From assembly GCF_027213715.1 (NCBI RefSeq), contig NZ_JAPWGM010000001.1:744001-808000 (forward strand): DNA of 64,000 nucleotides. The letters run 5' to 3'. The notes under the pieces are model-generated. The model had not been told where the DNA came from. It searched no databases and saw only the letters and a program-made list of their open reading frames with translations. The DNA comes from Pedobacter punctiformis. Its GTDB lineage: Bacteria > Bacteroidota > Bacteroidia > Sphingobacteriales > Sphingobacteriaceae. How positions within the stretch are numbered: position 1 is the stretch's first letter; every line of letters begins with the position of its first letter. Positions 46,154 through 48,228 of the stretch are shown in pieces. A program made the translations under genes and the position numbers.

Positions 46154-46918
46154 ATGACGTATATTTTCGATGGCTCCATGCCTGGACTTTTAACTGCGGT
46201 TTTTGAATGGTTTGAACGCAAGCCGGGAAAAGTTGTACTCAAGTCTATCGAAATTTTTCAGCCCGAAGCTTTTGCAGAATCTTTTACCGTAATAACCGAT
46301 CATCAAAAGGCCGACCGGGTTTGGGCAGGGCTCAGGAAAAAAGTTAATCAGGAATGGCTGCGTAAATTCTATTGCAGTTACTTATCAGAAATTCCGGCAG
46401 CTTATAATCACCTTTTCCACTTTTGTTTATATACTTTTAAAAATGCACCCGGCGCCGAAAGTAATTATGGAAATGAACACGTAATGGCCCTTTCTAAATA
46501 TGCTAAAAGTGTAGAAAGGGAAAAACACCGCATGGAAGCTTTTATACGTTTCCAAAAAACCAGCGACAGCATATTTTATTCGGCCATTGATCCTGATTTT
46601 AATGTTCTGCCCTTAATTTTGATCCATTTTAAGAATCGTTATGCTGATCAGCAATGGATTATCTATGATTTAAAACGTAAATATGGTCTTTATTATAACT
46701 TAAAAGAGGTTGAAGAGGTGACCATGAGTTTTACAGATCAGATGAACAAGAAAAATCCGGATGCAGTTTTTATGGATGAGAAAGAAGAACTCTACGCTGT
46801 TTTATGGAAAGATTATTTCAAAAGCGCCAATATTATTGCCCGTAAAAACACTAAACTTCACTTGCAGCATGTACCCAAACGGTATTGGAAATATTTGACC
46901 GAAAAGCAATCGAGTTAA
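46154..46918 (+). CDS. DUF4130-type DNA metabolism protein, partner of the radical SAM enzyme
   Basis: A 254-residue protein of the family that accompanies the radical SAM protein (probable DNA metabolism protein). The N-terminal IFDGSMPGLLTAVFEWFERK and the C-terminal DPDFNVLPLILIHFKNRYADQQWIIYDLKRKYGLYY are its signatures. In some other bacteria the partner is longer and carries a UDG-like domain at the C-terminus; that domain is absent here. It ends FTDQMN ... KRYWKYLTEKQ, with no extra domain. The stop overlaps the region of the Pho-box-like element before the next gene. Confidence 0.85.
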   Translation: MTYIFDGSMPGLLTAVFEWFERKPGKVVLKSIEIFQPEAFAESFTVITDHQKADRVWAGLRKKVNQEWLRKFYCSYLSEIPAAYNHLFHFCLYTFKNAPGAESNYGNEHVMALSKYAKSVEREKHRMEAFIRFQKTSDSIFYSAIDPDFNVLPLILIHFKNRYADQQWIIYDLKRKYGLYYNLKEVEEVTMSFTDQMNKKNPDAVFMDEKEELYAVLWKDYFKSANIIARKNTKLHLQHVPKRYWKYLTEKQSS

Positions 46919-46948
46919 CATTCCATTAACATAAAACTCTTAAATTGC
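46915..46948 (+). promoter_or_regulatory. Candidate Pho box and -7 element of the PhoR-like kinase gene
   Basis: TTAACA at 46915-46920 and at 46926-46931 repeat with an 11-bp period. Nine bases later lies TAAATTGC (46941-46948), near the Bacteroidota -7 consensus. The same 11-bp period and the same 9-base gap occur before the phosphate transport operon. The first repeat overlaps the stop codon of the upstream gene. Confidence 0.6.
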
Positions 46949-46951
46949 AGC

Positions 46952-47977
46952 ATGAAATTAAGTGTGCTGGTTTTATTTACGGCTCTTGCGGTTGGCCTTT
47001 CAATCGGACTGGTTAATTTCCACTTTCAGGGAAGCTGGTATTATTTGCTCATCTCTTTTGGCATTTCCTTTATTACCAGTTTTATTGTTTTTTACTACCT
47101 GATTGAAAAATATATTTATACTAAAATTAAGCTCATTTATAAGCTGATTCACAACCTTAAACTTGGAAAAGACTTAAAAGAAGCACTCGGAGAATATGTA
47201 AGTTCTGATCCGATTAATGATGTAGAACAGGAAGTAAAAGAATGGGCCGGAGCCAAGAAAAAGGAAATCGACTTATTAAAAAAACAGGAACAATTTAGAA
47301 GAGAATTTCTTTCTAATGTATCCCACGAATTTAAAACACCTCTTTTTGCCATTCAGGGTTACATTGAAACTTTGCAGGATTGTGTGGTTGACGATCCTGA
47401 ACAAGCTGTAATTTTTTTAAAGAAAGCAGGCAACAATGTAGAAAGGTTAAGTTATTTAATTAATGACCTGGATGTAATTTCAAAACTGGAAACCGGAGAG
47501 TCTCCTATTCATTATCAGAAATTTGATTTTGTACACCTTGCTAAAGAAGTAATGGACTACCTGGAAGACCGGGCGCAATCCAAAAAAATCAACCTGTTTT
47601 TTAAAGATAAATATTCGGGGCCGACTATGGTTAGTGCCGATCGGGAAAAAATCCGTCAGGTATTAATTAATTTAATTGTAAACAGCATTAAATACGGCAT
47701 AGAAAACGGTGAAACAGCAATTAAGATTTTCGAATTGCACGATCAATTTTTAATTGAAGTAACCGATAATGGTATTGGTATTGAGGAAAAGCACCTTACA
47801 CGCTTATTTGAACGTTTTTATCGGATTGATACCCACCGTGCAAGAGAAGTTGGCGGAACAGGGCTTGGTTTGGCCATTGTAAAACATATTCTGGAGGCCC
47901 ACCAGCAAACTATTTCTGTACGCAGTACACCAGGAATAGGTACAACATTCGCCTTTACACTACAAAAAGGTGGGTAA
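46952..47977 (+). CDS. PhoR-like sensor histidine kinase
   Basis: A compact kinase of 341 residues. Two transmembrane helices (about 4-21 and 28-50) are separated by a loop of only a few residues, so there is no periplasmic sensor domain. The HisKA domain carries His125 in SNVSHEFKTP, and the HATPase domain ends with TDNGIGI and GGTGLGLAIVKHIL. This architecture is that of PhoR-type kinases, which work through the phosphate transporter rather than by sensing directly. No response regulator lies next to it. It precedes the DUF47-PiT operon by 270 bp, and both carry the same upstream element. Confidence 0.85.
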   Translation: MKLSVLVLFTALAVGLSIGLVNFHFQGSWYYLLISFGISFITSFIVFYYLIEKYIYTKIKLIYKLIHNLKLGKDLKEALGEYVSSDPINDVEQEVKEWAGAKKKEIDLLKKQEQFRREFLSNVSHEFKTPLFAIQGYIETLQDCVVDDPEQAVIFLKKAGNNVERLSYLINDLDVISKLETGESPIHYQKFDFVHLAKEVMDYLEDRAQSKKINLFFKDKYSGPTMVSADREKIRQVLINLIVNSIKYGIENGETAIKIFELHDQFLIEVTDNGIGIEEKHLTRLFERFYRIDTHRAREVGGTGLGLAIVKHILEAHQQTISVRSTPGIGTTFAFTLQKGG

Positions 47978-48019
47978 CCCGGCAATGAAATTTTATGCCA
48001 TTAGCAACCTTTAAATTTA

Positions 48020-48082
48020 TAAACCCGCTATAACTCCGGTAGAAAAAACCGGAGTTATAGCGGTTAGCGGGACTGCTGTTCC
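48020..48082 (+). repeat. Dispersed intergenic hairpin element, copy B
   Basis: Starting AAACCCGCTATAAC, it forms a 15-bp perfect hairpin (CGCTATAACTCCGGT with a loop of A-rich bases) and ends TTAGCGGGACT. The outer ends match copy A at 3111-3183 while the stem sequence differs. It lies in the intergenic space between the PhoR-like kinase and the pit operon. Confidence 0.5.
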
Positions 48083-48194
48083 CGAAAAACGACTGACTCT
48101 GGTTTTCCTAAATCCCCATTAAAAAGACTTAACCCTTATAAATCAGCTTGATAAAGCATTAAGACTAAATTAATTCCTTAATATAATTTATAAC

Positions 48195-48228
48195 TTAACA
48201 TTAACTTAACATTGAGCTTGTAGCTTTG
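48195..48228 (+). promoter_or_regulatory. Candidate Pho box and -7 element of the phosphate transport operon
   Basis: TTAACA at 48195-48200 and 48206-48211 repeat with an 11-bp period. TAGCTTTG (48221-48228), a match to the Bacteroidota TAnnTTTG -7 box, lies nine bases further. The geometry is identical to that before the kinase gene. Bacillus PhoP sites also consist of TTAACA-like repeats with an 11-bp period. Confidence 0.65.

Follow-up and report, generated by a model that had tools for sequence, protein, structure and literature searches.

What controls a phosphate uptake operon and the histidine kinase gene next to it in Pedobacter punctiformis was asked for a stretch of 64,000 nucleotides (hereafter the window; NCBI RefSeq assembly GCF_027213715.1, contig NZ_JAPWGM010000001.1, positions 744,001 to 808,000 of the forward strand). 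The stretch carries a gene for a PhoR-like kinase (phoR), followed by the pit operon, which encodes a DUF47 protein related to PitR and the transporter PitA; the direct repeat TTAACA-N5-TTAACA stands before each of the two (boxes 1 and 2). The PhoP box of Bacillus subtilis is made of TTAACA-like repeats with an 11-bp period, and a sequence-only reading of the window had proposed that the two elements are Pho boxes, the sites of a PhoB-type regulator, in a self-regulating phosphate-starvation circuit. The comparisons described here indicate that both elements are very probably Pho boxes for a PhoB-type regulator that would activate the phoR-like kinase gene and the PitR-PitA operon. They show the repeat to be a real and conserved regulatory element, which most likely works as a Pho box.

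The repeat was present at both proposed places, and these were the only exact matches on either strand of the window, against a mean of 0.05 in 100 dinucleotide shuffles, none of which reached two. With two mismatches allowed, 26 matches were found against 23.4 expected, which is background level, so that information lies only in exact or nearly exact matches. Resampling of 150-bp regions with the composition of the two upstream regions produced an exact match in 6 of 40 000 cases for pit and 8 of 40 000 for phoR. A gap of nine bases between the second repeat and a -7-like element had also been proposed and was seen at both sites; the elements themselves are both present, that of pit being of the TAnnTTTG type and that of phoR being corrected to the TAnnTTGY type. 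Tandem direct repeats of 11-bp period, a fixed position just 5' of a core promoter element (as judged by the pit, phoR and ppk1 spacings) and a location before phosphate-acquisition genes and the gene of the regulator itself (in the genus, with pst in relatives) are properties of Pho boxes of the PhoB, PhoP and SphR type, and all three were seen here.

The comparison of upstream regions covered orthologues in 60 genus genomes, identical 150-bp regions being dropped before counting. The pit box was exact in 59 of 59 distinct regions. A set of 80 named loci, found through the kinase at 81-96% identity and including 77 titled Pedobacter, gave an exact pit box in 66 of 66 loci with pit in reach, the other 14 being left out of the count with pit out of reach or below 60% identity. 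Other genera of the family contributed 36 loci, some of them with several each; here the box was exact in 29, had one mismatch in four and two or more in three. The proposed comparison of the two sites in relatives found the pit box kept across genus and family and the phoR box chiefly in Pedobacter. For a footprint, 31 of the 36 loci passed a loose promoter filter; of the five left out, three had no close box, L274 had its second repeat shifted, and L258 had TACTTTCG as promoter element at 9 bp. The gap to TA..TTTG was 9 bp in all 31, the filter permitting 8 to 12, and the spacer was mostly TTAA, though this was not demanded. Repeats, spacer and TA..TTTG stand out and the flanks do not, giving a footprint of two 11-bp half-sites TTAACATT and the promoter element. 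With the repeats so placed, a distinct -33 element would find no space, an arrangement like that of activator-dependent Pho promoters. Some relatives (G006, G013, G019, G023 and others) possess a second DUF47 gene, 45-62% identical to that of the window, and no close Pho box was found before these paralogues in the four distinct upstream regions scored (six were fetched and two dropped by the start or identity filter).

The genome of the window holds ten exact matches, about three being expected by chance when the window's chance rate is scaled up. With up to one mismatch the count is 127, the reversed pattern giving 77. Exact sites precede phoR and pit (identified by Pfam), ppk1 (NCBIfam), a DUF4397-like lipoprotein gene, two SusC-like genes and a candidate small RNA, and another lies about 250 bp before an efflux-type gene; the lipoprotein, SusC-like and efflux-type labels come from reading the open reading frames (ORFs). 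Across the genus, the box followed by TAnnTTTG 8-11 bp downstream gave 102 matches, distributed over 60 of 60 genomes at 1-3 per genome, and 60 of these carried the pit-type sequence (hand count); the reversed-pattern control gave one. The named loci amount to 547 kb, and of the 100 exact N5 matches in them 99 lay at phoR or pit (control 0); TTAACA pairs at other spacings gave 0-3 matches each, except N1 (18) and N12 (29). Neither exception was retained: eight N1 examples consisted of the pit box preceded by one more repeat, and eight N12 examples were a different recurrent site on the minus strand.

These counts bear on two simpler explanations. Chance matches in A+T-rich sequence would fit the background level found with two mismatches, yet they are extremely improbable in view of the excess of exact matches in the window, the genus-wide ratio of 102 to 1 with the promoter element and the family-wide footprint at pit. 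The repeats occupy the position of a -33 element and might instead be a constitutive promoter feature, either A+T-rich upstream sequence or a -33-like element, which needs no dedicated activator; such an intrinsic element would be common, however, and the full pattern is rare in every genome and mostly of the pit type, while the scored DUF47 paralogues lack the repeats, which makes this explanation very improbable.

Enrichment before phosphate genes, whose absence would have spoken against the Pho-box proposal, was looked for, and the motif was found before pit, phoB and ppk1 and, in relatives having PhoU, before pst operons. Thirty loci each were inspected for phoB and ppk1 among the matches listed (58 and 60 genomes matched). 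Before phoB, a gene present in 58 of the 60 genus genomes, the box had one mismatch in 30 of 30 loci listed, mostly with a third TTAAC 11 bp downstream, and before ppk1 it was exact in 29 and had one mismatch in the remaining one. The pst regions of five relatives having PhoU contained a correctly oriented box within one mismatch in four cases, two of them exact, sitting before pstS or the porin gene that heads the operon (labels other than PhoU from ORF reading). The 9-bp geometry of the pit promoter was seen at pstS of a Flavobacterium-like genome (G241), in the form TTAACATACTGTTAATA-N9-TACTTTTG. Genus g5 has an exact box at pstS (L332) and boxes with four and two mismatches at pit (L272, L288), which suggests that the box tracks phosphate uptake genes. 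What the sequences themselves show is the presence, spacing and conservation of the elements, the link of these to phosphate genes and the synteny of phoB and phoR in relatives, and the comparison supports the proposed phosphate circuit through conservation and gene association.

The response regulator had been expected to be encoded elsewhere, and a PhoB-like protein (L032) was indeed found on another contig (G000:C8:220898-221584), and a box of three repeats lies some 70 bp upstream of its start. Of the NCBIfam families, the two that it matches best are PhoB models. The genome encodes seven proteins with a Trans_reg_C domain, and among their loci a box within one mismatch lies immediately upstream only at L032; the one at L035 is 0.5 kb away and falls within the kinase gene that precedes the regulator. 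Absence of a box was also the ground for rejecting as partner the OmpR-type regulator encoded in the window (L037, Trans_reg_C at 38465-38686), the locus of which has none within two mismatches. Relatives at class level provide a further link: phoR matched in 42 genomes, 24 of the 30 loci listed lie outside the family, and in 23 of these 24 a phoB orthologue (51-61% identical) is found just upstream of phoR, as expected of a PhoB-PhoR pair. In other genera of the family phoR lies upstream of pit instead (15 of 16 loci, and 16 of 20 short loci); phoB and phoR have thus apparently been split in this family, and phoR appears to have moved from phoB to the Pit locus.

With seven Trans_reg_C proteins in the genome, the repeats could be bound by an OmpR-family regulator other than the PhoB-like one. 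Tandem direct repeats are a usual target of this family, for Pho boxes as described in PMC4415409 (here and below, statements from papers cited by PMC number refer to the portions of text available). The genes so targeted are phosphate genes (pit, ppk1, phoB and phoR, and pst of relatives), and only L032 has a close box immediately upstream, which renders a different regulator quite improbable.

The phoR box is kept less uniformly than the pit box. Among 59 genus genomes it is exact in 24, has one mismatch in nine and two in four; the corresponding figures for the 80 named loci are 33, 19 and four, with more mismatches in 24. The promoter element follows the box by 9 or 10 bp in the genus loci with an exact box, and TAnnTTGY starts 11-12 bases before the phoR ATG in 50 of the 80 named loci, TAnnTTAGC taking this place in 10. 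In Flavobacterium psychrophilum TAnnTTGY is the SM5 class, located at -12 to -5, for which an alternative sigma factor is thought to be responsible (PMC9723704). In the window TAAATTGC ends 3 bases before the ATG, so that in the SM5 geometry transcription would start at or next to the ATG, and the phoR mRNA is predicted to be leaderless; among the mRNAs examined in F. psychrophilum, 5.5% are given as leaderless (PMC9723704).

Several observations weigh against the reading of both elements as Pho boxes of a single PhoB-PhoR circuit. The phoR box has three or more mismatches in 22 of the 59 genus genomes and comes within one mismatch in only 1 of 18 loci from other family genera (17 have two or more), and at class level, outside the family, none of the 24 loci listed has it within one mismatch. 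Confinement of this box to Pedobacter would make autoregulation of the kinase a Pedobacter trait and no general rule. It is also conceivable that only the pit box functions, the phoR box being a chance match or relic and phoR being run by its TAnnTTGY promoter without PhoB. Box 1 shares bases with the stop codon of the DUF4130 gene in front of it, and the uneven conservation just described, with 33 exact boxes among 80 named loci, fits this possibility. Where exact, however, the phoR box keeps to one position, the promoter element following after 9 or 10 bp, and an exact match is rare in the resampled sequences; relatedness of the genomes limits this argument, and we consider a non-functional phoR box unlikely.

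Other points against the Pho-box circuit concern the remaining genes. Outside the family the phoB box comes within one mismatch in only 2 of 23 upstream regions, the promoter-like element of ppk1 is mostly CAGnTTTG at 10 bp and not TAnnTTTG at 9, the pst region L331 is without a box of the right orientation at up to one mismatch, and two of the ten exact genomic sites lie inside unrelated genes (infB and a DUF962-like gene, by ORF reading). Both partner proteins score below the equivalog cut-offs, L032 for PhoB (TIGR02154, 226.2 of 296.2; NF053854, 219.9 of 270) and the kinase for PhoR (TIGR02966, 233.4 of 334.2 bits) and PnpS (NF046044, 255.1 of 400). Flavobacterium johnsoniae gives evidence on both sides: depletion of phosphate induces phoB together with other genes listed for the phoBR cluster, in favour of the circuit, and phoR is not significantly induced (0.76, P 0.056; PMC8115612), which fits the box-less phoR genes at class level. 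For Pedobacter, no binding or expression data were found in the literature.

Table 1. Features of the phoR-pit locus (window positions) and the candidate small RNA
Feature	Position	Strand	Remarks
Pho-box-like direct repeat 1	46915..46931	+	TTAACATTCCATTAACA = TTAACA-N5-TTAACA; before phoR
Promoter-like element	46941..46948	+	TAAATTGC; 9 bases after box 1; fits TAnnTTGY
Pho-box-like direct repeat 2	48195..48211	+	TTAACATTAACTTAACA; before pit operon; conserved block to about 48214
-7 promoter element	48221..48228	+	TAGCTTTG (TAnnTTTG); 9 bp after second repeat of box 2
Upstream DUF4130 gene	46154..46918	+	PF13566; 3' end overlaps box 1
PhoR-like histidine kinase, 341 amino acids	46952..47977	+	Pfam HisKA and HATPase_c
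DUF47 / PhoU_div protein (PitR relative), 213 amino acids	48248..48889	+	PF01865, 82.1 bits against cut-off 24.4
PiT-family phosphate transporter (PitA), 336 amino acids	48902..49912	+	PF01384, 300 bits
Candidate small RNA with Pho-box promoter	G000:C9:466603-466484	-	L134 (minus strand), L213

The genes downstream of the boxes are those that the sequence-only reading had named, a PhoR-like kinase without a periplasmic sensor domain and a DUF47-PiT operon, as judged by Pfam. The Pfam scan of the kinase matched no periplasmic domain and no PAS domain, the latter being expected of PhoR, and its best NCBIfam families are PnpS and PhoR, matches to both beginning at residue 104. The DUF47 protein resembles PitR in having a single PF01865 domain and a gene adjoining pitA; it falls below the NCBIfam TIGR00153 cut-off (64.1 of 104.3). 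An inverted repeat with 16-base arms and no clear T run (48025-48063) lies between phoR and the pit Pho box and may separate the two transcripts.

PhoU (PF01895), part of Pho systems under Pst-PhoU control, was found in none of the 10 Pedobacter genomes examined, that of the window included, in 5 of 20 genomes examined overall and in 13 of 14 control genomes. A tie between loss of PAS and loss of PhoU was considered and dropped, the kinase being of similar length in the PhoU-bearing relative G241. In Staphylococcus aureus, PitR (PF01865) represses PhoPR under ample phosphate (PMC13170248). With no PhoU found, the DUF47/PitR-Pit pair encoded beside phoR may be the sensor partner, and we put the chances that PitR gates this PhoR at about even.

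A mechanism consistent with these data would begin with a phosphorylated PhoB-type regulator, most likely L032, which would occupy the tandem 11-bp half-sites in head-to-tail fashion where a -33 element would otherwise lie and activate transcription of the PhoR-like kinase gene and the PitR(DUF47)-PitA uptake operon. At low phosphate the kinase would phosphorylate L032, and positive feedback would arise through the boxes at phoB, phoR and pit. The kinase would be informed of phosphate import by the DUF47/PitR protein, the gene of which adjoins phoR, in the manner of PitR in S. aureus.

One of the exact genomic sites (C9:466603-466587, minus strand) precedes no gene; TACTTTTG follows 9 bp on, and about 80 bases lead to a terminator, suggesting a small RNA, which is convergent with a gene for a 583-amino-acid acyltransferase-like protein (ORF reading). 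A query of 126 bases holding box, promoter and RNA matched DNA in 58 of 60 genus genomes, in G042 at the 3' end only, and many genomes had two to five matches, some of them partial or promoter-only. In the 70 bases upstream of the best 30 loci (one per genome), the box was exact in 10, had one mismatch in nine, two in nine and three in two (hand count). The query included the box, so a fairer count comes from the 13 loci in which the alignment starts past it, namely five exact, two with one mismatch, four with two and two with three (also counted by hand). The predicted fold has a 5' hairpin, a conserved unpaired stretch GUUUAGGUUAGUUGAU and a terminator (z = -3.9). Six pairs of the terminator are preserved through two-sided changes; no compensating two-sided changes were seen in the 5' hairpin, which is supported by conservation. 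No Rfam family scored above its gathering score in seven small RNA loci, and matches to Leu_leader and MicC, none above 32.5 bits, were ascribed to chance. A covariance model run on a 121-genome sample of the family matched 13 of 14 Pedobacter genomes and, marginally, one genome of another genus (E 8.6e-4), a single match on which the small RNA is not claimed beyond the genus.

Taken as a whole, the circuit might be a PhoU-free one in which a PAS-less PhoR encoded at pitR-pitA is gated by PitR(DUF47)-PitA, amplifies itself via TTAACA Pho boxes and drives a hitherto unrecorded small RNA whose unpaired GUUUAGGUUAGUUGAU would reprogram target mRNAs in phosphate starvation; in this full form the proposal is tentative, and we hold it somewhat less probable than its failure in one part or another.

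Two further sites with box-like repeats were observed. A triple TTAA[TC]A repeat with TTACTTTG after N9 (L211:6629-6656, minus strand, G000:C8) stands before a SusC-SusD-like pair (ORF reading), a possible phosphate utilisation system. A second recurrent Pho-box promoter, with an 11-bp gap to TAnnTTTG, occurs at L177, L185, L191, L192, L195, L196 and L210, about 260 bp past a GAPDH-like gene (ORF reading) in the six loci with that gene in view. Downstream of it comes either a short frame of MTKK type, which is broken in L185, or a hairpin with AGTGTA/TACACT; under the strict pattern it was not found in the window's genome.

The Pho box of Escherichia coli consists of two or more 11-bp tandem direct repeats at a fixed short distance upstream of the -10 element (PMC4415409, PMC1906773). 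The elements described here share with the PhoB sites the 11-bp tandem repeats near a promoter and the location before phosphate genes, but differ in having TTAACA(TT) rather than the CTGTCAT half-site, a distance of 9 bp to the Bacteroidota element TAnnTTTG, a Pit operon as target and no PhoU found. Close to TTAACA in sequence is the cyanobacterial SphR box, with the half-site CTTAACCT in 8-bp repeats joined by 3-bp linkers, likewise an 11-bp period; it differs in the last bases of the half-site and in the genes regulated, and SphR requires at least three repeats (PMC1906773). In the same phylum, F. johnsoniae and Bacteroides fragilis have phosphate-responsive PhoB/PhoR systems (PMC8115612, PMC3547664). 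The pair proposed here is orthologous to genes that are neighbours in class-level relatives, but in this family phoR precedes pitR-pitA and does not lie beside phoB; the available portions of those two papers give no Pho-box sequence. The PitR-PitA system of S. aureus also has a PF01865 protein encoded adjoining PitA (PMC13170248), whereas here a kinase gene is a neighbour as well and no PhoU was found in the genome. Putative Pho boxes have been described at plcP clusters of marine bacteria (PMC4796936), and no Pho-box sequence for Bacteroidota turned up in the accessible open-licence literature, subscription papers lying outside the scope of the search.

Relative to known Pho systems, what is new is phoR at the Pit locus, a genome in which no PhoU was found and a candidate small RNA under a Pho-box promoter. 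Expression studies have established that Bacteroidota control genes by phosphate, and a defined Pho box with fixed promoter spacing would make the Pho regulon readable from genomes of this group. The box also names a likely regulator-kinase pair despite the separation of the two genes, and the small RNA suggests a post-transcriptional arm of the phosphate response. Pedobacter would thereby offer a system for Pit-coupled phosphate sensing without PhoU.

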